This document shows, piece by piece, positions 10,195 to 27,012 of a stretch of DNA of 64,000 nucleotides. The stretch lies in NCBI RefSeq assembly GCF_001983955.1, contig NZ_CP019562.1:1426001-1490000 (forward strand). Direction: 5' to 3'. The stretch's first letter is position 1. The number at the start of each line of letters is the position of its first letter. A model generated the notes under the pieces. The model had not been told where the DNA came from. It did not search any database and saw only the letters and a program-made list of their open reading frames with translations. This stretch comes from Streptococcus oralis (lineage in GTDB: Bacteria > Bacillota > Bacilli > Lactobacillales > Streptococcaceae). The position numbers were made by a program, and so were the translations under genes.

Positions 10195-10806
10195 CTACAC
10201 GATCAGAAAAGTCTCTATCGTGCCATTTTCATACATGATGTATAGTCCAAGTAGAATGAATACTATGGGCACAATGATTCGCTCGTATTTTTCAATTGTC
10301 TCGAATATTAACGGAATAGAGGATAACATCCGACTAATCTCGCAAAAGATAATTATGCCGATTACAAACACAAGCAACGCCACGAGGGTCTGTGACCAAT
10401 CTAACGAAGCAAAATAAGGTATATAGATACCTAAATTATCTCCGCCAGACGCAATTGTCAGCAATGTAACTGTCCAAAACAGTTGATTTGCCTTGCTTTG
10501 TTCTAATCTTTCAATAATTTCTTCCTCTTCTTCCTCACCTTCTCCAACAATTGCAAAGCGAATCCCTAAATAGATAGGGATTAAACCAAGCAATCCAACC
10601 ATCCATTCTTCAGGCACGAAATTAACGACATAAGCAGCAACTAAACTCGCCCCTACAAGTAAGCCTGTTCCTAGATATTGCCCCGCATAAATATGCCATT
10701 TCTGTTTATTCTGTGATAGCTGTGCAAATAAAATAATTAAAATAATTAAATAATCGATACTGGTGGAAATATAAACACCAATAGCAGATATGATTGTCTG
10801 TCCCAT
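10195..10806 (-). CDS. cadD: CadD-family cadmium resistance transporter
   Basis: A 203-aa membrane protein with about six helices, starting MGQTIISAIGVYISTSIDYLII. The pattern of ASGGDNLGIYIPYFASL and an acidic cytoplasmic loop of consecutive Glu residues (about residues 89-97) fits the CadD family (PF03596), which gives cadmium and sometimes zinc resistance by efflux. ATG 10806 follows an AGGAGG site. No cadC/cadX regulator is adjacent; instead a Cys-rich small ORF and an operator-like repeat lie upstream. The specific metal is inferred from the family. Confidence 0.85.
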   Translation of the reverse strand: MGQTIISAIGVYISTSIDYLIILIILFAQLSQNKQKWHIYAGQYLGTGLLVGASLVAAYVVNFVPEEWMVGLLGLIPIYLGIRFAIVGEGEEEEEEIIERLEQSKANQLFWTVTLLTIASGGDNLGIYIPYFASLDWSQTLVALLVFVIGIIIFCEISRMLSSIPLIFETIEKYERIIVPIVFILLGLYIMYENGTIETFLIV

Positions 10807-10835
10807 AAAAACCTCCTGTATTAGTTAGTAATAAA

Positions 10836-10910
10836 TCAGCAGATTTTAGGAGAGCACAGACACATTAATTTTGCTATCGCTAGTGGGTAATGTCGAACGT
10901 AGGAAAGCAT
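10836..10910 (-). CDS. 24-aa Cys-rich leader ORF upstream of cadD
   Basis: ATG at 10910 follows a very strong ribosome site (GAGGAGGAG, 10915-10923) and encodes 24 residues ending LMCLCSPKIC before TGA, 29 nt upstream of the cadD ATG. Three of the last eight residues are Cys (C-x-C then C five residues on), a plausible soft-metal ligand set. The strength of the ribosome site and the position make a regulatory leader peptide more likely than chance. It is an inference; no homologue is known to me. Confidence 0.5.
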   Translation of the reverse strand: MLSYVRHYPLAIAKLMCLCSPKIC

Positions 10911-10974
10911 TTTACTCCTCCTCAAAACGTAGTTACAAAGTAATTTCTAACTGGAATTCGGTGACTACTTCCAT

Positions 10975-11010
10975 GTAAAGTATAACATACTATACTTTAC
11001 TTCGTAAAGT
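10975..11010. promoter_or_regulatory. operator-like inverted repeats at the cadD promoter
   Basis: GTAAAGTATA-ACATAC-TATACTTTAC (10975-11000) is a perfect 10-bp inverted repeat, and CTTTAC-TTC-GTAAAG overlaps it on the right, giving three GTAAAG/CTTTAC half-sites. On the minus strand the left arm includes TATACT (10979-10984 region), a likely -10 for the cadD transcript. A dimeric repressor binding here is inferred. Confidence 0.5.
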
Positions 11011-11026
11011 GTGGGCTCTCCGAGGG

Positions 11027-11067
11027 GGCTTGCAGACAGCTACTCGACTTTTCAAGCCGAGTAGCTG
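11027..11067. promoter_or_regulatory. strong hairpin with an alternative pairing, between cadD leader and CRISPR array
   Basis: CAGCTACTCG (11037-11046) pairs perfectly with CGAGTAGCTG (11058-11067). GGCTTG (11027-11032) can instead pair with CAAGCC (11053-11058), which sits in the loop and base of the first stem. On the minus strand it could fold in the cadD leader RNA; on plus it lies in the presumed CRISPR leader. There is no T-run typical of a simple terminator. Confidence 0.5.
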
Positions 11068-11103
11068 CGCACCTTTATGGTGTAATTAGCTGATACCATT
11101 TGA

Positions 11104-11723
11104 GTTTTTGTAGTCTCCAAAATTGTGACCGATAAAACAAAAGATCTATAATTTGTCTATATTTTCCTGTTTTTGTAGTCTCCAAAATTGTGACCGATAA
11201 AACGCAGTTCGGCGTTCAAACAAATTAAACTGTGTTTTTGTAGTCTCCAAAATTGTGACCGATAAAACTCTAAACAGTTTGTGGCAGATAACCGAAGAGT
11301 TTTTGTAGTCTCCAAAATTGTGACCGATAAAACCCTTCGCCCTATCACCATCGAGTTTGAAGCGTTTTTGTAGTCTCCAAAATTGTGACCGATAAAACAA
11401 TGTTGGAGCTGCAACAGCCAAGATCATTGTTTTTGTAGTCTCCAAAATTGTGACCGATAAAACAAAAGAATGAATTTGACAACGTTGAAGTTGGTTTTTG
11501 TAGTCTCCAAAATTGTGACCGATAAAACCAATCTCAGCTCCTGTTACTTTTTCTTTAGGTTTTTGTAGTCTCCAAAATTGTGACCGATAAAACTACGGAA
11601 ACCATGTATACACTAGCGACTATGTTTTTATAGTCTCCAAAATTGTGACCGATAAAACTCAATGCGCTTCGAGGTACTGAGAATGATTGTTTTTATAGTC
11701 TCCAAAATTGTGACCGATAAAAC
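11104..11723 (+). CRISPR. CRISPR array, 10 repeats and 9 spacers, no cas genes in the window
   Basis: Ten 35-nt repeats begin GTTTTTGTAGTCTCC and end GACCGATAAAAC, at 11104, 11169, 11234, 11299, 11364, 11429, 11494, 11559, 11624 and 11689. The period is exactly 65 bp, so all nine spacers are 30 nt, and all differ. The last two repeats carry the same G-to-A change at repeat position 7, which marks the right side as the old (trailer) end and the left as the leader end. The repeat start resembles the S. thermophilus type II-A CRISPR1 repeat, which suggests plus-strand crRNA orientation. No cas gene or tracrRNA anti-repeat was seen nearby. Confidence 0.95.
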
Positions 11724-11730
11724 CTCAATA

Positions 11731-11787
11731 AAAAAGCCCTCTGAATATCAGAGAGCTGATTTGAGCTTGGGCTAAAATCCTAGTGAA
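11731..11787. repeat. terminator-bearing direct repeat, copy 2 (after the CRISPR array)
   Basis: Near-copy of 10129-10186. On the minus strand it forms GCTCTCTGA-TAT-TCAGAGGGC followed by T6, a good Rho-independent terminator. Here it would stop minus-strand transcripts before they enter the CRISPR array antisense. Confidence 0.75.
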
Positions 11788-12065: not shown

Positions 12066-12335
12066 TTAGCGACGAAGTCCTAGAGAGTTGATCAACTCAC
12101 GGTAACGGTTAACGTCGTTTTTACGCAAGTATGCAAGCAAGTTACGACGGCGACCGATTTTCTTCATCAATCCACGGTAAGTAGCGTGGTCTTTTTTGTG
12201 TTGTTTGATGTGTTCGTTAAGGTGGTTGATTTCCCAAGTAAGGACAGCAACTTGAACCTCTACTGAACCTGTATCACCTTCGTGACGTGCATATTGTGCG
12301 ATGATTTCATTTTTTTTCTCTTTTGAGATTGCCAT
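12066..12335 (-). CDS. rpsO: 30S ribosomal protein S15
   Basis: An 89-aa protein, the standard length for bacterial S15, starting [20 protein letters not shown] and ending [31 protein letters not shown] is the 16S rRNA-binding region. It binds the central domain of 16S rRNA early in 30S assembly. Single gene with a good AAGGAGA ribosome site; a leader of about 100 nt upstream could hold autoregulatory structure, but I could not identify one. Confidence 0.98.
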
Positions 12336-14049: not shown

Positions 14050-17000
14050 TTATTTCTTAAAAATAGAGGTTCTGAAGTCGTTTGTTTGGTCAAGATAAGC
14101 TTTAAAGATTGCTCTCTTCAACTTATGAACTGCACTGTCAATCTCTGGCTTATAGTCACTCCAACGAGGAGCCACTGCATCCTGTAGCACAGCTTGGTCC
14201 ATAAGGGCCTGCAATTCACTCACACGATTGATGGTCTTGGTCGCATAGCTTGGCCATGGTTTTGTCGGATCTTTAAAGGTCACTTGTTTCAAGTTTTCAA
14301 ACTGATCCACACGTTCTTTATACATGGCTTTCTTAAAGGCAGCCCAAGATGCATACTTGCCTTCAAATACCTTGTCCAATACAAGATCATCTGTCACCAA
14401 TCCGCGTTCTTTACCATAGAGATTGATGGTTTTACCTTTTTGTTTGGCAGCTTCTTCATATTGGTTGGAGATATAAGGTACCATTCCATCCTTAAAGCCT
14501 TTGGCAGCCAAAAGTTCGTAAGCAATCCTACGCCCCATAAGGTCCCCTGGCGTGCCTTTCTCACTGCTGAGAGCTGAAAAGATTGGGGCAAAGAGTTTAA
14601 TGGTATAGTAGCCATTTCGTTCATAGTCGCCAGTCTGGTACTCACGAGATGATAAGATGTTGTGGTCAATCAAACTTTCAAAACTATTCAAGTTTTGGGC
14701 CTCTGCTTCTGTCAATTCTTTGACTACGTTAGTGGCGTAAACCTCATTTCCATCTGCTGGATCTTTCACATACTTGTTCTCAATTTTTCTGAGAGCCGCC
14801 ATTTTCTGGTAAACATTCAGTTTGTTGACGATTGATTGTCCTTCGAGATATTCTAGCATGTAGATAATGTCAAACATGTTGTGGACATAGTTCTGAAGAT
14901 CTGCTGCGTTTTGGAATCTCTCTGTCGGATCTAAGACTTGCAGACGGGAGCCTTCTGTACTATCTGATTTTGAGTGTTTCAAGATAGAATTGATGGTAAT
15001 GGTTGCGTCACTTGGTTGGTCAGGCGCTTGCAATAAACCTTTTGCAAAGAACTCTGGTCCCAAGCCGCTTCTTCGACCATAGCCGCCAAGGTAAATATCC
15101 TGATCCGAATCATGGGTCATCTCATGGGTATATGTAATGGCTCCATCCTTGTCCAGCATACGGTAAGACATATAGTAGACGCCATCCCCTGTAGCGTAGG
15201 CTCCATGCTGGTTGTGAACTACCTTATTGCCAACTGGTCCAAAGAAATTCTTCATGGCTGGATTGGAACTATCAAACTTAGCCTCCAATGTAGCTTTTCC
15301 TGAGGTTGTGTCATCACCAAACTTATAAGCATCATAAATCAAGATGGTACGATAGAGTTTTTCACGTGATTGTTCATCTAAAATACGATACCAATAATCG
15401 TAGTGATCTCGCTGGCGTTTGGCTGTTTCACGCGCATTTTCTTCAACAAAATCATTGAGATTCTTGCCCGCTTTATGCTCACTATTGCGGTAGCGATCAT
15501 AGGCTCCAAATCCTAGGCTAGACATGGTCGAGATGACAAAGACTGATTTTTCTGGCAAGGTTAGGAGAGGCAAGACCATATTGCGGTATTTCCATGTGGC
15601 ACTTGTGATGCGATCATAAACACCGATAGAATACTTGGTGCCAACTAGTCCTTGTTTCGCTTTTACCTCTTTGATAGTGGATTTTTCTTCGACGATGTAG
15701 GCCTTAGTCTCTGATTTAAACCAGTCATTGTTGCTTTTCTCTGGTAGAAAGACTTTTCGGTAATGTTCTAAAGTGCTAAACAAATCTGTCGTTCCATGTT
15801 GACTGGCAAGACTGATACCATAAGTATCGACATTATTCTTAGCTAGAAGGTTGTTAAAGCCAGATTTACCTAACTCAATCAGAGTATCTAGTGGTGAAGC
15901 ATTCCCCTTACCAAAGAAGTCCAGATGGTACAGAACCAGGTCTTTGACGTTTACCTGACCATAACTGAAGTTATACCAACGTTCTAGATAGGTCAAGCCA
16001 AGTAGCAAGGCTTCTTTGTTGCGCTTGATTTTATCTACAAGATAGCCCTTGGTAACTGAGTTATCACCAGCCAGTCCAGCATCTGCTGACAAGAGTTTCT
16101 TCAAACTGTCTTCCAGATGTTCCTTTGTTTTGGCGAACTGATCTTCTAGGTAGAGCTCAGTCTGCTCGACTTTTGGAGAAATACCGAGTGTCTTTCTGAT
16201 TGTTTCTGAGCGGTAGTCAACCTTTTGTAAGTCATGTAAGACTTGTTTGATGATAGAGCTTTGGTCATACAGGAATTGGTTTGGTGTATAGAGAAGACCC
16301 GTATTTCCTAGACTATATTCCGCTAATTTGGCGAAATCAGCCTGGTACTGGAGATTGAGCTTCTCAGATGAATGGTCCTTGTAGTGAAGCAAGAGTTTGT
16401 TTGCAGTCTGTTTGTTAGAAATAATATCTGTGATGACTTGGTCATCCTTCATCATGACTGCTGACAAGAGTTCTTTTTGATATAAAAGACTGTTCTCATT
16501 GACCAGATTTCCGTATTTGACGATGGTTGCCTTGTTGTAGAAAGGTAGCAATTTTTCAATATTTTTATAAGCCAAGGCGCGCTTAGCTTGATAATGAGCC
16601 ACCTTAGAAAAATCACTGTCTTTTTTGCCACTTGTTGAGAGGGGCTCCACTGTTGGTAGAGTGAGAGGATTAATGGCTACTTTTTTGCTTTCGATTTGAG
16701 AAGCATCTAGCATTGTTCCTCTTTCTTCAAAGGATTCCTTGCTGACGACCTCATCCTTGACTAAGGTGACATTGTAGACTCTGTTGGCCTTACTGCTAAA
16801 TGTGTCCTTCACCTTCATTTCATTATAGTGGTAACCGGTAATGGCATTCCCGTTGGTTACATTGACATCACTGAGAACATTGGTCAATCTTCCAGCATGC
16901 TGTTCCTCATTAGTTTTTCGATCCCACAAATAGCCTGCTACTCCCGCGACTCTACCAAAGTGCTTGGCATTGTTAATATCGCCTTCAGCATAGCTATCTT

Positions 17001-19557
17001 GGATTTGTGCATCCTGATCTACTAGACCTGCAAGACCACCCACTGTCTGATCTGAACTATTTGTGTTGGACGAAATGGCTACTGTCGCTTTTGACTTAGT
17101 AAGTAAAGCCTTGTCACCTGTCAAATGACCGACCAGACCACCGATATTATAGGCAGCAGTCGTCTCATACGTGTTGATAATTCTTCCCTTGAAACTGCTC
17201 TCTGTGATGCTTGATTGATCAGCCTTAGCCAGCAAACCACCGATACCACGTTCACCTGCTAGAACACCATCGACATGAACTTGTTTAATCTTTGTGCCAT
17301 TCCGAGCTTCATAGGCCAGTGAACCGATGTCATCTTTCCCTGAAATGGAGACATTTTTTAGGCTCAGCTTTTCTACTGTGGCGCCATTCAAAGTTTCAAA
17401 CAGTGGTTTTTTCAAGTTGTAAATAGCATACTGCTTGCCATCTTTTTCACCGATCAACTGACCAGTAAAGATGCCCTTGATGTAGGATTTAGCTTCAGGC
17501 TCCAACTCCACTTCGTTGGCATTCAAACTAGCTGCTAAATGATAGGTTCCAGAGAGATTCTGGTTGATAGCTTTGACTAGGTTGCTAAAGGAAGTAAAGG
17601 TTGTCGTTTCCTCTCTAGCTTTCTTAGCTAGGTAGAAGGTGAAATTATCAACATATTTATTTTCTAGCTCTTGCTGGAGTTTCTCAGCCTTGGCTGTGAT
17701 TTTATAAACTGGCTGACCATCTTTCGTTTCTGCCGTTATTGAAGTGACTGGTAGATAGACATCTTTAAACGACGAAGATTTAACCTTGACAAAGTAAGTG
17801 TCTGGATTACTTGGGACACCGTCTAAAGAAACGTGTTGTTTGTAAGTACCATTGGTCTGACTATACAACTCCAGATCCGAAACGTTTCTTAGCTCAAGCG
17901 TCTTCTCTGGGTCTTTTTCTTTTGGTTTTTCTGTCGGAGTTTCCGGTTTTACTTGCTCGGTATTGCCAGTATATTCTGGAAGAGGAGCGACTTGTTCCGG
18001 TTCAACGATGGCTCCTGCTTGCTCACCTTTATATTCTGGTAAGGAAGATTGAGTCTCAGGTTCAACAATGGCACCTGATTGAGTGCCTGTATACTCTGGT
18101 TTTTCAGCTGTTTCAGGAGCTACAATCGCTCCAGCTTGAGTTCCTGTATACTCTTGTGTCGATGGTACCTTTTCAGGCTCTACGATTGCTCCAGACTGCT
18201 CACCTGTATAGGCTGGTTTGTCAGTCGTTTCTGGTTCCACCAAAGCCCCAGACTGGACACCCCCAACCTCTGGCTCAACTTTTTCCGGTTCAACGATGGC
18301 ACCAGCTTGAGTTCCCTGATACTCAGGTAGTGGAGCGACTTGCTCGGGTTCAACGACTGCTCTTGCTTGGGTGCCTGTATATTCTGGTCTTTCAGCTGTT
18401 TCTGGGGCTACAACCGCTCCCGCTTGCTCGCCTGTATATTCTGGTAATGGAGCCTGAGTCTCAGGCTCTCCTTTTCTTGCAGACTGAGGTGCTTCACTCG
18501 GAGCAACTGCCTTCTTAGTCCCTTTCTCTACTATACGTGGCAATGCTTCTTCTACTTTAGTTGAGAGAACTTCCCTAGAAATTTCTTGGTTTTCAACCGT
18601 GAAAATGCGAACAAGCTCAATCTTCTTCCCAGCACGACCTTCTTGTTTGACATGGATGGTTCCCTCTGCTAGATCTGGATTTTCTTGAACCACTTCTGGA
18701 ACATCTAGTTTAGTTTCAATTTCTTGCTCTTTGTATCGGAGTTCTGGTTTGTTCACGCGACCAGCCAAGACTTCATCCTGAGGATCCACACTCGCAAGAC
18801 CAGACGGATTTTGATTGGATGAATCTTGAGAAGGGATTGGTTTTTCAGCAGGGAGTGTAGGAGATGGAGCTTTCTGCTCATCTCCTGCCCTTTGCCCACC
18901 TTCGTTTGCTTGGAAATGAGGTTGAACAGTATAGTCAAGTTTCTGATCCCTAGCAGCAGTTTCTAGCAGACTAGCGTCCTTGTCTTGCTTAATATAGCCT
19001 AGGTAGGTATAACCCGATAAGGCGCGTGGCAAGGGCAGACTATCTCCTTGGGATAATTGGTATTCCTGATTATACTGGAGTAAAAGTTGATTTTCGATAG
19101 CCTGAACTGAAGAAGCCAAACCACTGCTCATCCCCGTTACCAAAATCACATTCAAGAGAGCTTTCTTTTTGCCTTTCTTTTTCGATACAACAAAAATAAG
19201 AAGGCCAATCGAAGCCAAGGCTCCACCAGTTAAAACACTAGTAAGGCTATTCTGCCCACCTGTATTGGGCAACTGACCTAGTTGGGCTTTCTCATCCATA
19301 CGGTAGACTAGATAATAGGTGCTCTCACTATCTTCCGCAATTTTAGGAATGTCCTTTACAATCAAGTCCTTCTCTTGACTACTTAGCTCTGTATCCGTCA
19401 CATATTTGTAGTGAACAGCTGCATTTTCTTGAGCAAATACGGTTCCACTACTCGCAATGGACACAAAAAATAGGCTTGAAATCGAAGCTGATACAAGTCC
19501 AATTGCTAATTTTCGTAAGGAGAAACGATGCTGCTTCTCTCCAAAAAACTTTTTCAT
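14050..19557 (-). CDS. iga: IgA1-specific zinc metalloprotease (M26), ZmpA
   Basis: A 1835-aa cell-wall metalloprotease that cuts human IgA1 in its hinge. The N-terminus has a YSIRK-like signal (HRFSLRKLAIGLVS) and an LPNTG sortase motif at about residue 96 followed by two hydrophobic segments: the N-terminal LPxTG layout of streptococcal M26 proteases. A G5-like region, then eight full copies plus a partial of a 20-aa Pro/Glu repeat (EYTGTQAGAIVEPE), GLUG motifs, and the catalytic YTHEMTHDSD (HExxH at about 1478) with Glu in LGPEFFAKG follow. From memory the C-terminal two-thirds match pneumococcal Iga almost throughout. ATG 19557 follows GAGAGGA; the in-frame TTG at 19572 overlaps that site. 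Confidence 0.93.
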   Translation of the reverse strand: MKKFFGEKQHRFSLRKLAIGLVSASISSLFFVSIASSGTVFAQENAAVHYKYVTDTELSSQEKDLIVKDIPKIAEDSESTYYLVYRMDEKAQLGQLPNTGGQNSLTSVLTGGALASIGLLIFVVSKKKGKKKALLNVILVTGMSSGLASSVQAIENQLLLQYNQEYQLSQGDSLPLPRALSGYTYLGYIKQDKDASLLETAARDQKLDYTVQPHFQANEGGQRAGDEQKAPSPTLPAEKPIPSQDSSNQNPSGLASVDPQDEVLAGRVNKPELRYKEQEIETKLDVPEVVQENPDLAEGTIHVKQEGRAGKKIELVRIFTVENQEISREVLSTKVEEALPRIVEKGTKKAVAPSEAPQSARKGEPETQAPLPEYTGEQAGAVVAPETAERPEYTGTQARAVVEPEQVAPLPEYQGTQAGAIVEPEKVEPEVGGVQSGALVEPETTDKPAYTGEQSGAIVEPEKVPSTQEYTGTQAGAIVAPETAEKPEYTGTQSGAIVEPETQSSLPEYKGEQAGAIVEPEQVAPLPEYTGNTEQVKPETPTEKPKEKDPEKTLELRNVSDLELYSQTNGTYKQHVSLDGVPSNPDTYFVKVKSSSFKDVYLPVTSITAETKDGQPVYKITAKAEKLQQELENKYVDNFTFYLAKKAREETTTFTSFSNLVKAINQNLSGTYHLAASLNANEVELEPEAKSYIKGIFTGQLIGEKDGKQYAIYNLKKPLFETLNGATVEKLSLKNVSISGKDDIGSLAYEARNGTKIKQVHVDGVLAGERGIGGLLAKADQSSITESSFKGRIINTYETTAAYNIGGLVGHLTGDKALLTKSKATVAISSNTNSSDQTVGGLAGLVDQDAQIQDSYAEGDINNAKHFGRVAGVAGYLWDRKTNEEQHAGRLTNVLSDVNVTNGNAITGYHYNEMKVKDTFSSKANRVYNVTLVKDEVVSKESFEERGTMLDASQIESKKVAINPLTLPTVEPLSTSGKKDSDFSKVAHYQAKRALAYKNIEKLLPFYNKATIVKYGNLVNENSLLYQKELLSAVMMKDDQVITDIISNKQTANKLLLHYKDHSSEKLNLQYQADFAKLAEYSLGNTGLLYTPNQFLYDQSSIIKQVLHDLQKVDYRSETIRKTLGISPKVEQTELYLEDQFAKTKEHLEDSLKKLLSADAGLAGDNSVTKGYLVDKIKRNKEALLLGLTYLERWYNFSYGQVNVKDLVLYHLDFFGKGNASPLDTLIELGKSGFNNLLAKNNVDTYGISLASQHGTTDLFSTLEHYRKVFLPEKSNNDWFKSETKAYIVEEKSTIKEVKAKQGLVGTKYSIGVYDRITSATWKYRNMVLPLLTLPEKSVFVISTMSSLGFGAYDRYRNSEHKAGKNLNDFVEENARETAKRQRDHYDYWYRILDEQSREKLYRTILIYDAYKFGDDTTSGKATLEAKFDSSNPAMKNFFGPVGNKVVHNQHGAYATGDGVYYMSYRMLDKDGAITYTHEMTHDSDQDIYLGGYGRRSGLGPEFFAKGLLQAPDQPSDATITINSILKHSKSDSTEGSRLQVLDPTERFQNAADLQNYVHNMFDIIYMLEYLEGQSIVNKLNVYQKMAALRKIENKYVKDPADGNEVYATNVVKELTEAEAQNLNSFESLIDHNILSSREYQTGDYERNGYYTIKLFAPIFSALSSEKGTPGDLMGRRIAYELLAAKGFKDGMVPYISNQYEEAAKQKGKTINLYGKERGLVTDDLVLDKVFEGKYASWAAFKKAMYKERVDQFENLKQVTFKDPTKPWPSYATKTINRVSELQALMDQAVLQDAVAPRWSDYKPEIDSAVHKLKRAIFKAYLDQTNDFRTSIFKK
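17960..18460 (-). repeat. Pro/Glu-rich 20-aa repeats in iga
   Basis: Eight full and one partial coding repeat of the form PEYTG-x-QxGAIVxPE. Unit sequences differ at the DNA level. The plus strand also stays open across it, which is an artefact of the repeat. Confidence 0.85.
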
Positions 19558-19730
19558 TCTAAATCCTCTCAACTTTTACCTTCTATCAAAAAAATAACTA
19601 GCATTATATTTTGATATAGGTATTTCACATCCACCATTATACTATAAAAATACTTCCTTGTCTCAAATAAATACTTTGAATTTTATGAATGTAAAAGCTT
19701 ATTTATCCTGTCAAATTTACCCCTGGTTGA

Positions 19731-20402: not shown

Positions 20403-23400
20403 CTATCTTTCAAAGATAGACTGTCTGAAGTCGTCTGTAGCACGTAGATAAGCGTTGAAAATACGATACTTGAGTTGGGCGACACTGCTCTTAGAGCTGT
20501 CTGATAAGGCACGATCAATGTTCTTAGCTGAGGCATCCGCTAGTACTGCTAAGTACATATAATCTTGCAATTCCTCATAAGAAGAAATCGTAATCTGTCG
20601 TTTGCTATCTAGTTTTCCTGCTTCAAACTCGATGGTGATAGGGCGAAGGAAGTTTTGAGCCTTGTTGTATCGCTCATTTAGCATAGCTTTCTTCAAATCC
20701 TTCCATGATTCATACTGACTACCGTAGAGGTTTTTAAGGATCCGATCATCTCCAACTACTCCGACATCTCCTCTGTTCCAGATTGAGTAGGTCTTGTCTC
20801 CTTCTTTGAGAGCTTGGCCAGCGTATTGGCCAGAGACATATGGGACGAATCCTTGCTGGTAACCTTTGTCTCCGAGCAATTCATAGGCTCTACGGCAGAA
20901 CATAAGCCCACCAGGTGCACCAGTTGGATTGTCCAGAGCTGCATAGAAGGAAGCAAACATATTGATGACATAGTAGCCATTTCGTCCAAAGCTAGCTCTA
21001 TCCCAACCATCGCGACGACCAATGATATTATGATCAACCAGAGCATCAACAGATTTTAGTTTGGCAGCTTCTTCGGCAGTTATAGGGACAATTCGATCAT
21101 CAGCGTGAGCTTGTTTACCATAAGAAGTTTTTTCAAAGTTATAATTTTCAGCCTTGCGGTACCATTTCATTTTCTGTTGATCAGTTAGAACACCAGTAAC
21201 AATATCCCCTTCTACATAATCCAGAAGGTTCAGTACGTCAAAGACTCCATGCATGTAGTCGCGAAGAGCATCTGCTGAGGAGAATCGGGCAACAGGATCA
21301 TAGGTATGGTAACGTGTGGTCGAATCTTTATCTCCTTGATAGAAGCTATTAAGTACGAGACCTTTTTCGCTAACATTGGTTACAGATTCTAACATCCCTG
21401 TAGCAAAGCTCTCAGGTCCTTCACCCTCACGACGACCATGTCCTTCAAAATAGATAGAACCATCCGAGTTGTGGGTCATTTCATGGGTATAGACCATGGT
21501 TCCAGAAGCTCCCAGCATCTGGTCATAGACGTAGAAGACTTCATAACCATTGGCAAAGGCCCCTAGTCCATTGTCTCCGTGATACTTGCCAGCAGGGCCA
21601 AAGAAATTGTACATAGCAACAGAGGTCTTATCATTACGCGGAGCCCAATATTGCTGGCCTTTATCATTATAAAGAAAGAAACCGTCTGTAACAATCACCC
21701 GTCTGAATAGAGTGTCTTTCCTGTTTGGACTTAAAATGTTGTACCACATGTCATAGTGGTTTCGTTGCCATTCAGCTGATTGATCCACAAGTTTTTCAAC
21801 GTGTCGATGGAGTTCCTCGCCTGAGAGAATTCTGCCACCTTCTTTCCTGTAGCCTCCAAAGCTACCAAAGGCAATAGTCGACATATTGCTGATGATATAG
21901 ACATCTCTTTCAGGTAAGGTCAGAAGTTGGAGGACCATTTGCTTGAAGCCCCAATCTCCCTGAGTCAGTCTATCGTAGACCTTAATTGTATACTTACTCT
22001 TACGATCCGCATTGTCTTGCTTAGCCTGAATTTCTGGCAGACTTGAACGAGCCTCTACGATATAAGCCTTAGTATTTTCCTTGAACCACTCACTGTTGGT
22101 TTTATTTGGCAAGAAGAGTTCACGCAGACTCTCTAAGTAAGCAAAGAGGTCCCCTTTGCCTTTTTCCTTGGCTAGGGATTGTCGGTAAGCATTGAAGTTG
22201 TTTTGCGCTCGAAGATTGCCCATTCCAGAGTTCCCGAGAGCGATGATAGTATCCAGTGTCGAAGCTGATTGATTGCCAAAGAAATCAAACTTATAGGCAT
22301 TAAGATCCTTGGTATTGAACGTTCCATAGTTGACATTGTACCAGCGGTTGAGATAGGTCAGACCAAGCATGAAGGCCTCTTTGTTCTGCAGAATCTTTTG
22401 GCTAATCGCATCCGCTACGGCAGGGCCTAGGGTGTTAATCGACTTGTCAACTGAAAGCACCTTGAGGAGCTCCTGACCTAATTCAGCCTTGGTTTGTTCA
22501 AAGGCTTTTTCCAGATAAAGATCATCTAAGGAAGCTGTTTCACCAATTCCCAGTACCTTACGCACTGCAGTTGAGTCATAAGTCACAGCTTTGAGTTCAT
22601 CCAAGACACTCTCTTTAATGGACTGGTAGTCAGATAAGAAGGCCTCTGGTGTATAGAGTAAATTCTTATCAGCGATGCTATATTCTGCAATCTGGCCATT
22701 GGCAAAATCACCCTTGTAGGTCAGATCAAGATAAGAGATTGTCTTATCTGCATAATGCAGCATCAGTCTATTGATTTCACCCTTATGGCTGTTGACATCC
22801 GTTATCAGCGTCTCATCTTTCATCGGAACCACATCTAGCAGGGCTACTTTGTTGAGTTTATCATCTTCATCTAATTGGTTGGCTGTATGAACGATGAAGT
22901 CTTTGTTGTAGAATTGTAATAGTTTTTCTACATTTTCGTAGGCTTGCTTTCTGGACTCCTGAGCTCCCCTCACTCGACTATAGTCTGTCTGATGCTGGTA
23001 AGATTGCTGCAATGGATCTTGGTCCGTCAAGTTCGAAGTGATTCCAAAAGACTGACGTTTGGCTTGCGCATCGGCCTCTGAAATAGAACGGACAAAACGT
23101 TCATCTTTTCGATTTGCTGTAGTTCCTTCAAGAACATAAGAGTCCCGAACAGAAGCCTCAGGATAGGGATCTCCTGTCATCGCATGACCATTTTGAACCT
23201 TGACACTGGTCAAAACATTTCGGACCTGTCCATTGTTCCAAGTAGATCCGATCGCTCCACCGACTTGGCCAGAATGACCTCCATTCTGGATAGAACCACT
23301 CACATAAGAAGTTTCTAATCTAGCTCCATTTTGCAAGCGACCAATCAAGCCTCCAACACGCTGGTCTCCATTTCGACCTGTTACTTGGATAGATACATCT

Positions 23401-26400
23401 GCTTGGCTCTTCTGCGCCAGTGATTGGTTGCCGTGGAAACTACCGACCAGGCCACCAACATTGTACTCCTGCCCTCCTTCTTGGGTGCTGGTGATGGACC
23501 CTTTAAAGGCAACATTGGTTAGTTTTGTGTTTTGGGCAACTCCTACGAGTCCACCGATATGCTTGTTCCCAGATAGACTACCACTTACAGAAACATCCGT
23601 AATCGTTGCATTCTGAGCATTGCTAGCCAAGGCCCCGATAGAGTCCTTACCTGTAACCGCAGCCGATTTCAAGGTCAGTTGCTGGATGGTGGCATTTTTC
23701 AAGGTTGCAAAGAGTGGTTTTGCCAAGTTGTAGATGGTATAATCTTTGCCATCCACTCGGCTAGTTAGGCTACCTGAAAATTCTTCTGGAACATAGCTTG
23801 TCGCAGACTGTTCCAACTGGAATTCATCTGCTGAAACATCCGCTCCTAATGTGAAGTTTCCAGTCGGGTTTGACTTCATGGCCTCTACGAGCGCTTTGAA
23901 GGACGTATAGACACCTTCTTGGCTAAGAGGCGTTTTCGGCAGTTCAAAAGAGTAATCTGGACGATAATGGTCCCCTTCTCCCTCGACGAGCTGATTAGCT
24001 GATACCGTTACGGAGTAGGCATTTCCCTTATCTGTAATCTTAGAAACGGGTAAGAGCATATCCTTGAACTTGTCTGACTGAATGCGGACATAGTAGTTGT
24101 CCAAATCAGACGGCACTTCCGACAGAGATAGGTAACGTCGGTAGTGACTGCCATCTTTACCGTACAGTTCGATGCGGTCGATGTCTTTGATTTCAACCTT
24201 CTTATAATCTAGCTGAACTAGGCGTTGATCCTCTATACTAGTTTGTTCCCCTTGACCCAGATCATATTTCATGACAGTTTTGAGGGTATAAGGAGTATAG
24301 TAGTCCAAGTCATCAAGTGTCAATTTTTGAGCGAGGTCCACAAGGTCGACTTCCTTGATCAGCGTTTCGCCCTTGTATAGCTGCACTTTGGCTGATTGAT
24401 AGCTAGCTGTAGCATCCGTCAAATGATAGCTAAGAGAAACTTGGCGTTTGTCTTCTTCCTTCTCGACACGGACTAGAGAGAGGGTTGGTTTTCTCTTGAC
24501 ACCATCCAGAGCTTGACGAGCTGCCTCGAGATCCGTCCGAACTTGATCGACCAAGGCTTGATTGGCGAAAGGATTGTCCAAAACGAGCTTGGCCTGATCT
24601 AGAGCACGACGATAGCGGAGTTTGGCTTGTTCATCAGCATACTGGTAAGCAACTGTAGACTGAGTCACATCCTTCATGTCAAATTCAACTCCAAGAGTTT
24701 TCTTATCAACAGGTTGGCCGTCTAGATTATTCTTAGCAGTTTCAAGGGCTTTTTTCAAAGAATCAACCTGTTCTTGACTGGCATGAGATGTCTCAAAGAG
24801 AGCTTGGGCATTTGCAACTGCCTGTTTATAAGACTCTTGATCTGCAGTGGTATCATTGAAATACTGATGCGTTTTCTGAATGCTATCGGCCTCTTCCACT
24901 AATTGGTGTAAGGGTTCGAGGTCGAGAGTTCCTTTTTCTGGTTCCACAGGAGCGTGATCCGCATTTGTAGAAATTGGTTTTATACCGACTTTGATAATCT
25001 GAGGAACTGCTTCTTTTGTGACAGTGTTAGAGATTTCCTCTGTATTTTCGACTTTTCCATCTACTAAATACTGACGAGTCACAATCGTACGCACGCCATC
25101 TTGACCTGCTTGACTAACTTCTCTTTGCCCCAATGGCAGGTCTGCACTTTCCACTTCCTTGGTTGGATAGGGTTCGGCCACTGTTGTGGTAACGTCCTTT
25201 TCTTCGACGTTTAAGCTTGGAACTTCATTTACAGGAGCGTCTGTTGGTTTCTCGCTAACAGGGCCTGTTCCAACTGTTACGATCTCTGATACCGCTGGAG
25301 TCGTCACTTCGTTGGAGATTTCCTGGCTTCTCTCTACTTTGCCATCTACTATGTACTGACGGGTGACGATTGTGCGCACTCCATCTTGACCAGCTTGGGT
25401 TATCTTGGTCTGGCCAACTGGTAAGCTATCACTCTCTACTCGTTCTCGAGTGTAGGGTTCTGCTACCGTCGTGGTAACATCTTTTTCTTCAACGTTTAAG
25501 CTTAGAACTTCATTTATTGGGGCGTCTGTTGGTTTCTCGCTAACAGGGCCTGTTCCAACTGTTACGATTTCTGATACTGCTGGAGTTGTCACTTCGTTAG
25601 AGAGTTCCTGGCTTCTCTCTACTTTTCCATCTACCATGTACTGACGGGTAACGATTGTACGCACGCCATCTTGACCAGCTTGGGTTATCTTGGTCTGGCC
25701 AACTGGCAAGCTATCACTCTCAACTCGTTCTCGAGTGTAGGGTTCTGCTACCGTCGTAGTAACATCCTTTTCCTCAACGTTTAAGCTTGGAACTTCATTT
25801 ACAGGAGCGTCTGTTGGTTTTTCACTAACGGACTCCCCTGGGCTTGGTTTTGTAGGAGAAAGGACCTTGCTTCCGACTTTTCTAATCTCAGAAGTCGGCT
25901 CAGTCGTTACCTGATTGGAAACCTCCTCTGTATGGATCACCTGACCATTTAAAATGTAGCTGCGGGTCACGATGGTACGACTACCATTTTTCCCTGCCTG
26001 AATCACCTCAGTTTGACCTTGCGGCAAATCAGCTGCCTCTACTTCCTCCACTTGGAAAGGAATGATCTCTGTACGACTCGTATCTTTACTTTCAACCTTT
26101 AACTCTGGTTGTTCAAATACAGGAGCATCACTTGGTTTCTGAGCACGGTACTCTTCCTGCGCTTGGCTTCCGTTTGAAGTTTGAACTGGAGTATCAATAG
26201 GAGCCGAATGATTCAACTCTTTCTTGCCATCAACTGGAGAGTTTACTTCTTTTTGAGATTTCAAATACCCTACATATTGGTAGCCTTCAATCGTAAGTGG
26301 GGATTGCAATGTTTCCCCGACCTGTACAGTCAATTCCTGATTATAGTCTGCCAGCATTTGATTTGTTAAAGCCAAGGAAGTTGGCGCAATTAGCTGACTT

Positions 26401-26828
26401 CCTAGACTGGTCAAGAGCATGAAAGAAGCGAGTTTCTTGCGATCATCTCTGCCCAGTTTAATCGCTACGACCAGTAGCACTATGCCTGCCCCCGCTGCAA
26501 TTGAGCTAATGAGTTGGCTGTGACCAGTTGCAGGCAACTGTCTCGTTGGACGGTAAATCAAATAGTATGTATCATCTGTTTCCTCAGCAAACTGTGGCAA
26601 TTCTTTGACTACCAACTGCTTTTCTTGGTCCGTGAGTTCACTCTCTGTCACGTACTTATAGTGAATCTGTTTTGTGACGGATGGCGTCTGTTCACTAGCT
26701 GCTACACTAGCAAGGGAACCTCCTCCACTAAAAAGGTAGAAAACCCCTACCAGAGCAGAAACTAGACCAACCGAAACTTTTCTAAATGAAAAACGCTGGT
26801 GCTTTTCTCCTAAATAATTTCTTTTCAT
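20403..26828 (-). CDS. ZmpB-like M26 zinc metalloprotease (second of three)
   Basis: A 2141-aa surface protease. N-terminus: YSIRK-like signal (QRFSFRKVSVGLVSA) and LPATG at about residue 98 followed by membrane segments. Then four G5 domains (each with QAGxxGxRTIVTR), three of them nearly identical at the DNA level, a FIVAR-like helical pair (about 24500-24930), GLUG motifs (VGGLVG, VGGLIG), and catalytic YTHEMTHNSD (HExxH about residue 1782) with Glu in EGPESFATG. ATG 26828 is chosen because a promoter with its -10 at 26866-26871 excludes longer starts, and AAGGAAAG lies 7 nt upstream. The substrate is unknown; it is less similar to Iga than to ZmpB/ZmpD-type paralogues. Confidence 0.85.
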   Translation of the reverse strand: MKRNYLGEKHQRFSFRKVSVGLVSALVGVFYLFSGGGSLASVAASEQTPSVTKQIHYKYVTESELTDQEKQLVVKELPQFAEETDDTYYLIYRPTRQLPATGHSQLISSIAAGAGIVLLVVAIKLGRDDRKKLASFMLLTSLGSQLIAPTSLALTNQMLADYNQELTVQVGETLQSPLTIEGYQYVGYLKSQKEVNSPVDGKKELNHSAPIDTPVQTSNGSQAQEEYRAQKPSDAPVFEQPELKVESKDTSRTEIIPFQVEEVEAADLPQGQTEVIQAGKNGSRTIVTRSYILNGQVIHTEEVSNQVTTEPTSEIRKVGSKVLSPTKPSPGESVSEKPTDAPVNEVPSLNVEEKDVTTTVAEPYTRERVESDSLPVGQTKITQAGQDGVRTIVTRQYMVDGKVERSQELSNEVTTPAVSEIVTVGTGPVSEKPTDAPINEVLSLNVEEKDVTTTVAEPYTRERVESDSLPVGQTKITQAGQDGVRTIVTRQYIVDGKVERSQEISNEVTTPAVSEIVTVGTGPVSEKPTDAPVNEVPSLNVEEKDVTTTVAEPYPTKEVESADLPLGQREVSQAGQDGVRTIVTRQYLVDGKVENTEEISNTVTKEAVPQIIKVGIKPISTNADHAPVEPEKGTLDLEPLHQLVEEADSIQKTHQYFNDTTADQESYKQAVANAQALFETSHASQEQVDSLKKALETAKNNLDGQPVDKKTLGVEFDMKDVTQSTVAYQYADEQAKLRYRRALDQAKLVLDNPFANQALVDQVRTDLEAARQALDGVKRKPTLSLVRVEKEEDKRQVSLSYHLTDATASYQSAKVQLYKGETLIKEVDLVDLAQKLTLDDLDYYTPYTLKTVMKYDLGQGEQTSIEDQRLVQLDYKKVEIKDIDRIELYGKDGSHYRRYLSLSEVPSDLDNYYVRIQSDKFKDMLLPVSKITDKGNAYSVTVSANQLVEGEGDHYRPDYSFELPKTPLSQEGVYTSFKALVEAMKSNPTGNFTLGADVSADEFQLEQSATSYVPEEFSGSLTSRVDGKDYTIYNLAKPLFATLKNATIQQLTLKSAAVTGKDSIGALASNAQNATITDVSVSGSLSGNKHIGGLVGVAQNTKLTNVAFKGSITSTQEGGQEYNVGGLVGSFHGNQSLAQKSQADVSIQVTGRNGDQRVGGLIGRLQNGARLETSYVSGSIQNGGHSGQVGGAIGSTWNNGQVRNVLTSVKVQNGHAMTGDPYPEASVRDSYVLEGTTANRKDERFVRSISEADAQAKRQSFGITSNLTDQDPLQQSYQHQTDYSRVRGAQESRKQAYENVEKLLQFYNKDFIVHTANQLDEDDKLNKVALLDVVPMKDETLITDVNSHKGEINRLMLHYADKTISYLDLTYKGDFANGQIAEYSIADKNLLYTPEAFLSDYQSIKESVLDELKAVTYDSTAVRKVLGIGETASLDDLYLEKAFEQTKAELGQELLKVLSVDKSINTLGPAVADAISQKILQNKEAFMLGLTYLNRWYNVNYGTFNTKDLNAYKFDFFGNQSASTLDTIIALGNSGMGNLRAQNNFNAYRQSLAKEKGKGDLFAYLESLRELFLPNKTNSEWFKENTKAYIVEARSSLPEIQAKQDNADRKSKYTIKVYDRLTQGDWGFKQMVLQLLTLPERDVYIISNMSTIAFGSFGGYRKEGGRILSGEELHRHVEKLVDQSAEWQRNHYDMWYNILSPNRKDTLFRRVIVTDGFFLYNDKGQQYWAPRNDKTSVAMYNFFGPAGKYHGDNGLGAFANGYEVFYVYDQMLGASGTMVYTHEMTHNSDGSIYFEGHGRREGEGPESFATGMLESVTNVSEKGLVLNSFYQGDKDSTTRYHTYDPVARFSSADALRDYMHGVFDVLNLLDYVEGDIVTGVLTDQQKMKWYRKAENYNFEKTSYGKQAHADDRIVPITAEEAAKLKSVDALVDHNIIGRRDGWDRASFGRNGYYVINMFASFYAALDNPTGAPGGLMFCRRAYELLGDKGYQQGFVPYVSGQYAGQALKEGDKTYSIWNRGDVGVVGDDRILKNLYGSQYESWKDLKKAMLNERYNKAQNFLRPITIEFEAGKLDSKRQITISSYEELQDYMYLAVLADASAKNIDRALSDSSKSSVAQLKYRIFNAYLRATDDFRQSIFER

Positions 26829-26865
26829 TCCTAATCTTTCCTTTATCATGATTTGAATCCCCTCT

Positions 26866-26894
26866 ATTCTACCGAAATTTACTAGATTATTCAA
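26866..26894 (-). promoter_or_regulatory. promoter of the second M26 protease gene
   Basis: TTGAAT (26889-26894), 17 bp, TAGAAT (26866-26871) on the minus strand. The surrounding 40 bp closely match the promoter of the third protease gene at 35251-35279. Confidence 0.7.
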
Positions 26895-27012
26895 TTTATT
26901 TGCTAGAAATAGTAACAACCAAACAATACTAATCTTTTCAGTTCATTTGCGATTTAAAAATCCTTATCTTGTCAGATCTTGAATGCGCAAATAATATCAT
27001 GGAGAATCACAG

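Follow-up and report, generated by a model that had tools for sequence, protein, structure and literature searches.

The described systems closest to the locus studied here are found in Enterococcus faecalis and Streptococcus thermophilus. As described in PMC5491264, the orphan CRISPR2 of E. faecalis is a widespread type II array without cas genes at a fixed site, which often occurs in strains that lack cas genes and shares its PAM with the cas-linked CRISPR1; its repeats are identical to those of CRISPR1, a leader transcript has been mapped and interference in trans has been demonstrated. The CRISPR1 locus of S. thermophilus is a type II-A system with a short Cas9 and a leader that ends in ATTTGAG; according to PMC5382924, the leaders of group-1 type II-A loci share this ending, which CRISPR1 of S. 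thermophilus requires for adaptation. In CRISPR1 of S. thermophilus Uy02, the G at leader position -1 is missing, which has been proposed as the cause of spacer gain inside the array (PMC5338259). A cleavage-dead Cas9 (Wei 2015, described in PMC6990116) has further indicated that type II-A adaptation without cleavage no longer favours plasmid DNA over that of the host. The literature that we searched contained no description of the 35-nt repeat examined here or of orphan arrays in such streptococci.

The window that we analysed is a stretch of 64,000 nucleotides from Streptococcus oralis, corresponding to positions 1426001-1490000 of a genome (G000) that consists of a single contig of 1,966,910 bp. 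As reported in the initial annotation, it contains ten 35-nt repeats and nine 30-nt spacers, located at 11104-11723 on the forward strand, with a 65-bp period that is exact across the array. The nine spacers are all distinct and repeats 1 to 8 are identical, whereas the leader-distal repeats 9 and 10, which flank spacer 9 (11624-11723), have in common a single change, here identified as G to A at repeat position 7. The divergent left neighbour on the reverse strand (10195-10806), previously noted as a metal-efflux gene, is a cadmium-transporter gene of the Cad family (PF03596, E 4e-93), and the right neighbour is the rpsO gene for ribosomal protein S15 (12066-12335, reverse strand). A terminator-like hairpin (11735-11757, reverse strand) is located between the array and rpsO and faces transcripts from the rpsO side; 2 such hairpins were found, as compared to a mean of 0.5 in shuffled sequences. 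It was also noted that 2 adjacent, very large surface-protein genes are located at 14050-19572 and 20403-26918 on the reverse strand, the second of which contains M26 peptidase domains.

The regular repeats and unique spacers are those of a type II-A array, and the leader and intergenic region (10807-11103, forward strand) leads into ATTTGAG (11098-11104) before GTTT, the leader end given in PMC5382924, with the final G doubling as base 1 of repeat 1. The adjacent cas9-cas1-cas2-csn2 genes of a type II-A locus were not found, nor was a tracrRNA with a matching anti-repeat. Searches with the HNH_4 (Cas9) and Cas1 models gave no match within the window, in agreement with the earlier statement that no cas gene is located nearby, and an Rfam search of the window gave no match. 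The array resembles S. thermophilus CRISPR1 in its leader end, in the GTTTTTGTA start of the repeat and in an A-rich 3' PAM, and operons of the same kind with a 36-nt repeat are present in relatives; it differs in that its repeat is 35 nt long and shows little complementarity to the tracrRNA, and in that no cas genes adjoin it. As in Uy02, one G is missing at the junction, which reads ATTTGA/GTTTTT, but Uy02 gains spacers, including in the array interior (PMC5338259), whereas the cas genes are gone here. The likeness to E. faecalis CRISPR2 lies in the cas-less array at a fixed site with the PAM of a cas-linked array; in contrast to CRISPR2, the repeat has diverged from the cas-linked one (27/35 identical positions), a good leader promoter is absent and self-matching spacers are present.

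We identified the 35-nt repeat, with at most 3 mismatches, in 61 of 284 Streptococcus genomes, as a single copy in 41 and in 2 or more copies in 20, with a maximum of 13 copies per site as compared to 10 in our S. oralis genome. An exact repeat scan of the GTDB species genomes identified 26 stretches, all of them titled Streptococcus and mostly from mitis-group species by name. The chromosomal site is conserved: the start of the Cad gene was present at 60 of the 61 sites, 50 of which also showed rpsO; the other stretches mostly ended too early to include it. The junction consisted of ATTTGAG followed by the full repeat at 50 sites, was one G short in our genome and at 4 other sites, and showed other variants at 6. 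The conservation of the repeat itself (98.6% at 38 aligned solo sites, 4 sites having been excluded by name and others because their flanks were short) was set aside as evidence because the genomes had been selected by repeat match. One solo repeat, in G014:C9 near 172124, was broken in its 3' part and ran straight into the trailer.

A widespread leader and site would be expected if the array were the remnant of a cas operon of its own that once stood at this site. We consider this explanation very improbable, since none of the HNH_4 matches listed lay within 200 kb of the 35-nt repeat on the same contig in the 61 genomes, the PAM tracks the resident short Cas9 strain by strain (see below), and no dedicated anti-repeat recurred outside the arrays in 20 genomes searched with 2 mismatches. 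In the latter search, 6 scattered two-mismatch matches were found outside the arrays, in 5 genomes.

We read 8 loci encoding a short Cas9 in related genomes (G098, G106, G113, G115, G118, G119, G127 and G197). The short Cas9, a type known as St1Cas9, belongs to an operon linked to a CRISPR1-type array with the 36-nt repeat GTTTTTGTACTCTCAAGATTTAAGTAACTGTACAAC. This repeat agrees with the 35-nt repeat at 13 of the first 14 bases and at 27/35 positions overall, and the 2 arrays have in common ATTTGAG plus GTTTTTGTA[G/C]TCTC. In the G113 operon, models identified cas9 and cas1, while the names cas2 and csn2 (347 aa, without a match in NCBIfam) were assigned by position only. The differences between the Cas9 proteins are concentrated in the last four 100-residue windows, in which the identity falls to 57% to 58% between G098 and 5 others, as compared to 84% to 100% in the preceding windows. 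The 35-nt site was present in 6 of the 8 short-Cas9 genomes, always with 2 or more repeats, and such multiplied sites were found in 6/6 genomes with a short cas9 versus 14/55 without (Fisher p 7e-4, relatedness uncorrected). The 14 genomes with 2 or more repeats and no short Cas9 among the matches listed count against the explanation favoured below.

In our S. oralis genome, the genome-wide cas search, which used the HNH_4 and Cas1 models, gave no HNH_4 match anywhere, and a BLAST search using the G119 operon stretch returned the rplS side and one chance-like match of 35 bases only. A leader-repeat pattern search located a CRISPR1 junction at 728414, where rplS and tRNA-Arg are followed by a block of about 3.1 kb that contains HTH and DUF4145 genes, and then by the end of a csn2 frame, the leader and a single degenerate CRISPR1 repeat. 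The genome thus formerly had a CRISPR1-type operon, which is now lost. It was also noted that the HTH/DUF4145 block of about 3.1 kb behind tRNA-Arg (G000:C1:724500-736000) occupies the position that the cas operon has in the relatives. A CRISPR1-type junction with at most 1 mismatch was present in 37 genomes, counting a variant in G142, and the short Cas9 was absent, among the matches listed, only in our genome and in G142; the latter contains one variant CRISPR1-type repeat and leader (G142:C29 near 471). The suggestion in the initial annotation that the array is a stranded remnant therefore holds for this strain, which has lost its CRISPR1-type operon. No cas9 operon carrying the 35-nt repeat was found elsewhere in the genome; according to that annotation, such an operon would have made this an ordinary secondary array. 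The operon of the relatives has the related 36-nt repeat. CRISPR1-type repeats were also matched by KY705290.1 (671-772) and by another 18 S. thermophilus phage rows; in phage P9903, a perfect copy and a partial one are located between terS and terL, an arrangement that resembles the solitary repeats known from phages as RNA anti-CRISPRs.

The Cas1 model gave a single match in the S. oralis genome, a truncated cas1 at 1279 kb. This gene is part of a type III-A locus (G000:C1:1270000-1284000) that contains a cas2-like frame, an array with a 37-nt repeat, cas6 and csm-type genes. Only the last two thirds of the csm1 model and a quarter of cas1 were covered by the reading frames, and the locus may be decaying, since both are truncated. 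Given this type III-A locus and its associated array about 160 kb away, another effector might use the orphan array, be it this resident system or some further nuclease. However, the 37-nt repeat is unrelated to the 35-nt repeat, the csm1 and cas1 frames are truncated and the strict 3' PAM points to Cas9, which makes such a use extremely improbable; the unusual effector that had been proposed earlier found no evidence in these data.

For 7 of the 9 spacers in the S. oralis array, all on the forward strand, targets were located. Spacer 1 (11139-11168) matched phage MS1 at 30/30 positions with the 3' flank AAGAAAA, spacer 6 (11464-11493) matched phages Javan355 (28/30) and phiARI0468b-3 (26/30), both with AAGAAAA, and spacer 9 (11659-11688) matched the phage records CJLB-5 (28/30), SM1 and Javan266 (both 26/30) with GAGAAAA. 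Three spacers matched the S. oralis chromosome itself, all 8 candidate places having been scored: spacer 2 (11204-11233) at 29/30 positions in an ABC-transporter ATPase gene (G000:C1:682318-682347, flank TGGAAAA), spacer 4 (11334-11363) at 30/30 positions within the window (20620-20649, reverse strand, flank AGGAAAA) in the gene of the M26 IgA1-protease family at 20403-26918, and spacer 5 (11399-11428) at 30/30 positions in a transporter-permease gene (G000:C1:1836551-1836580, flank GGGAAAG). Spacer 7 (11529-11558) matched genes of G104 and G099 at 29/30 positions, with the flank TTGAAAA and no match in its own genome. No target was found for spacer 3 (11269-11298) or spacer 8 (11594-11623). 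Spacers 1, 8 and 9 were shared with G112 and spacer 5 with G120. Spacers 2 to 7 are located between spacers that are adjacent to each other in G112, which may reflect internal gain here or loss in G112.

Several of the spacers thus match phages, like those of a working array, which counts against the reading that the array is not used. Exact scans of IMG/VR with 19- to 20-nt 3' ends of spacers from the S. oralis array gave no match, and the arrays of G115, G126 and G169 likewise had no match among phages. One spacer of G112 had a 29-base match to 2 Acinetobacter phage records. MW057932.1 (17471-17502), labelled as a Campylobacter phage, matched spacer 9 of the S. oralis array in the same way as the streptococcal phages do, and its host label may therefore be wrong.

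All 7 located targets of the S. oralis array were followed by the PAM NNGAAA, that is GAAA at 3' flank positions 3-6, with a background frequency of 0.0079. Protospacers with a 3' PAM are a feature of type II-A systems. The PAM of St1Cas9 is NNAGAAW; strain variants of this PAM were not found in the literature searched. In the relatives, the flanks of the orphan-array targets could be compared with those of the linked CRISPR1 array within the same strain. In G098, AAAG was present at 5/5 located CRISPR1 targets and at 2/2 located orphan targets, and in G118 the one located CRISPR1 target was flanked by TGAAAGA and the orphan target by GGAAAGA, the G118 Cas9 being 90% to 99% like that of G098 in the last four 100-residue windows. 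In G115, the orphan targets followed NNAYRA at 9 of 11 located targets (10 if the mismatched base 31 of spacer s12 is read as flank) and the CRISPR1 targets at 3 of 5 (AAATAAC and, twice, CAATAAA), the misfits being the CRISPR1 spacers c14 (AGTAAAG) and c19 (GAAGTCA) and the orphan spacer s5. The orphan flank in G197 was GTGTAAG, and its Cas9 resembles that of G113, for which the 2 located CRISPR1 targets were flanked by GAGAAAA and CCGCAAA. The PAM of the orphan array thus agrees with that of the resident Cas9 directly in G098, G118 and G115, and in G197 through the likeness of its Cas9 to that of G113. This agreement within strains supports a link between the resident Cas9 and the orphan array, and the earlier idea of a cas operon that acts in trans from elsewhere holds to that extent for the relatives, but not for this strain, from which the operon is gone.

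Self-matching spacers were also identified in the orphan arrays of relatives. In G115, at least 7 of the 12 orphan spacers had a target on the chromosome of the same strain that differed at no more than 1 position and was followed by a flank that fits the PAM, which applies to s12 provided that it is read one base shorter. The targets lay in an RNase_T/DEAD-domain gene, in cas9, in rsgA, in genes for a dihydroorotate dehydrogenase subunit and an ftsW-type protein, and at 2 other places. Judging from its sequence, the cas9 gene of G115 appears intact, with the catalytic motifs present. In G118, the sole orphan spacer (1/1) matched a chloride-channel-family gene of the same genome. Among the places scored, no orphan self-matches were found in G098 (5 spacers), G119 (1), G197 (1) and G127 (2). 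Self targets with a PAM next to an intact-looking cas9, which we propose as the mark of an array used for adaptation only, were therefore found in G115 (at least 7/12) and G118 (1/1). The orphan counts in the relatives are lower bounds, as at most 16 candidate places were scored per genome, while all candidates were scored for the CRISPR1 spacers.

Across the 6 short-cas9 genomes, self-matches with at most 1 mismatch were observed for at least 8 of 22 orphan spacers versus 0 of the 115 CRISPR1 spacers in the stretches read, the G098 array extending past its stretch (Fisher p 1.3e-7; 8/20 versus 0/55 before a second control was added). However, 7 of these 8 self-matches came from G115 alone, and the contrast rests largely on this genome, since without G115 and G127 the numbers were 1/8 versus 0/59 (p 0.12); both tests overstate independence because the genomes are related. 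One CRISPR1 spacer had a self-match with 3 mismatches and no fitting PAM. It was also noted that 8 of 13 self-protospacers (from G115, G000, G118, G112 and G126) were located within 100 kb of CRISPR loci, and that self-protospacers were nearer to CRISPR loci than random places in a simulation (p 0.0009), a test that was chosen after looking at the data.

In a search across relatives, in which 2 candidate places were scored per genome and matches were taken within E-value limits, many orphan spacers matched genes that are found across many relatives. Functional spacers could have been acquired from transforming streptococcal DNA, so that the array serves as a barrier to gene exchange and the self-matches arose later, when recombination imported the targeted alleles. 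In the loci read, 7 of 55 CRISPR1 spacers also matched relatives, including chromosomal-looking genes. At least 2 of these, c10 and c19 of G115, matched such genes in relatives and not G115 at that identity, as this explanation would predict, and import after the loss of cas9 is possible in our S. oralis genome, as its own cas9 is gone. On the other hand, G115 keeps an intact-looking cas9 together with at least 7 orphan self-matches, and we regard the barrier as improbable. The self-matching spacers rather suggest that the array has been written but not used. The argument of the initial annotation from near-identical repeats to recent activity does not take these spacers into account.

Whether the orphan arrays are likely to be expressed was assessed from their leaders. 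In G113, the CRISPR1 leader contains an 11/12 promoter (TTGACG-17-TATAAT) ahead of the array, whereas the best promoter-like site in the orphan leaders was 8/12, in our genome and in 5 relatives, with none of 9/12 or more ahead of the first repeat in the S. oralis leader. A 10/12 promoter-like site inside repeat 1 and spacer 1 (11123-11152, forward strand) could be of chance origin, as 6 such sites were found in the stretch versus a mean of 2.9 in shuffles. The duplex energy with the CRISPR1 tracrRNA was -16.9 kcal/mol for the 35-nt repeat versus -36.3 kcal/mol for the 36-nt repeat, in a test that left out one stretch not reaching the tracrRNA, and shuffled repeats gave a mean of about -16 (sd 2.6 to 2.7). 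Of the pairing with the tracrRNA, the 35-nt repeat retains only the lower stem. The CRISPR1 tracrRNA was rejected as a pairing partner, since the pairing was no better than for shuffles. Pairing of the repeat with 2 flanks of the S. oralis array gave -19.3 and -18.9 kcal/mol, better than the tracrRNA and within noise. This pairing, the retained lower stem and the 10/12 site inside the array speak against silence.

These results bear on the explanation modelled on E. faecalis, in which the CRISPR1 Cas9 uses the orphan CRISPR2 (PMC5491264). By analogy, the array would be an ordinary secondary array that the CRISPR1-type Cas9 both writes and uses in trans, and that is inactive here through the loss of cas9. 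The PAM agreement, the spacers that match phages and the conserved lower stem would all fit, but the repeat has diverged from the linked one with tracrRNA pairing no better than shuffles, a good leader promoter is absent, and G115 and G118 carry self-matching spacers with a PAM beside an intact-looking cas9, one of them inside cas9 itself. We consider a secondary array of this type unlikely, and the self-matches argue against interference in trans by the orphan array, as far as can be judged from genome sequences. The promoter scan, the duplex energies and the tolerated self-matches together suggest that the array is silent, in the sense that crRNA would be neither made nor loaded.

The explanation that we favour, and consider probable, is that this is an orphan type II-A-like array that was written in trans, was not read out as immunity and was frozen in this strain after the loss of the cas genes. 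In the relatives, the CRISPR1-type Cas9-Cas1-Cas2-Csn2 proteins would integrate spacers in trans at the conserved chromosomal site, the junction of ATTTGAG and GTTTTTGTA that is common to both arrays being sufficient for integration by the CRISPR1 machinery, and the resident Cas9 would set the PAM of the spacers. With a poor leader promoter and most of the tracrRNA complementarity lost, the array is probably not read out, and spacers from the own chromosome would escape purging because the products of the orphan array are not used as guides. In our S. oralis strain, the cas operon would have been lost afterwards, and with the operon gone and the junction altered the array would represent a frozen record. 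We infer both the integration in trans and the lack of guide function.

More generally, and more tentatively, mitis-group streptococci may keep a conserved CRISPR site that is written only, where spacers integrated by the CRISPR1 machinery at a diverged junction never become guides. Such a site would hold an unselected record of sampling, self included, and might harmlessly divert autoimmune spacers away from the working array. Self-sampling by Cas9-guided adaptation is hard to see in nature, since cells that acquire self spacers should disappear; the loss of self discrimination described in PMC6990116 was obtained with an engineered Cas9, whereas the array proposed here is a natural one, unselected and next to a working array. 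Orphan arrays and self-matching spacers alone should not be taken as evidence for regulation or for anti-CRISPRs. If the interpretation is correct, an array that is written and not read preserves an unselected record in a cell that also holds a selected one sharing its PAM, and the self versus non-self bias of natural spacer acquisition could be counted from genomes.
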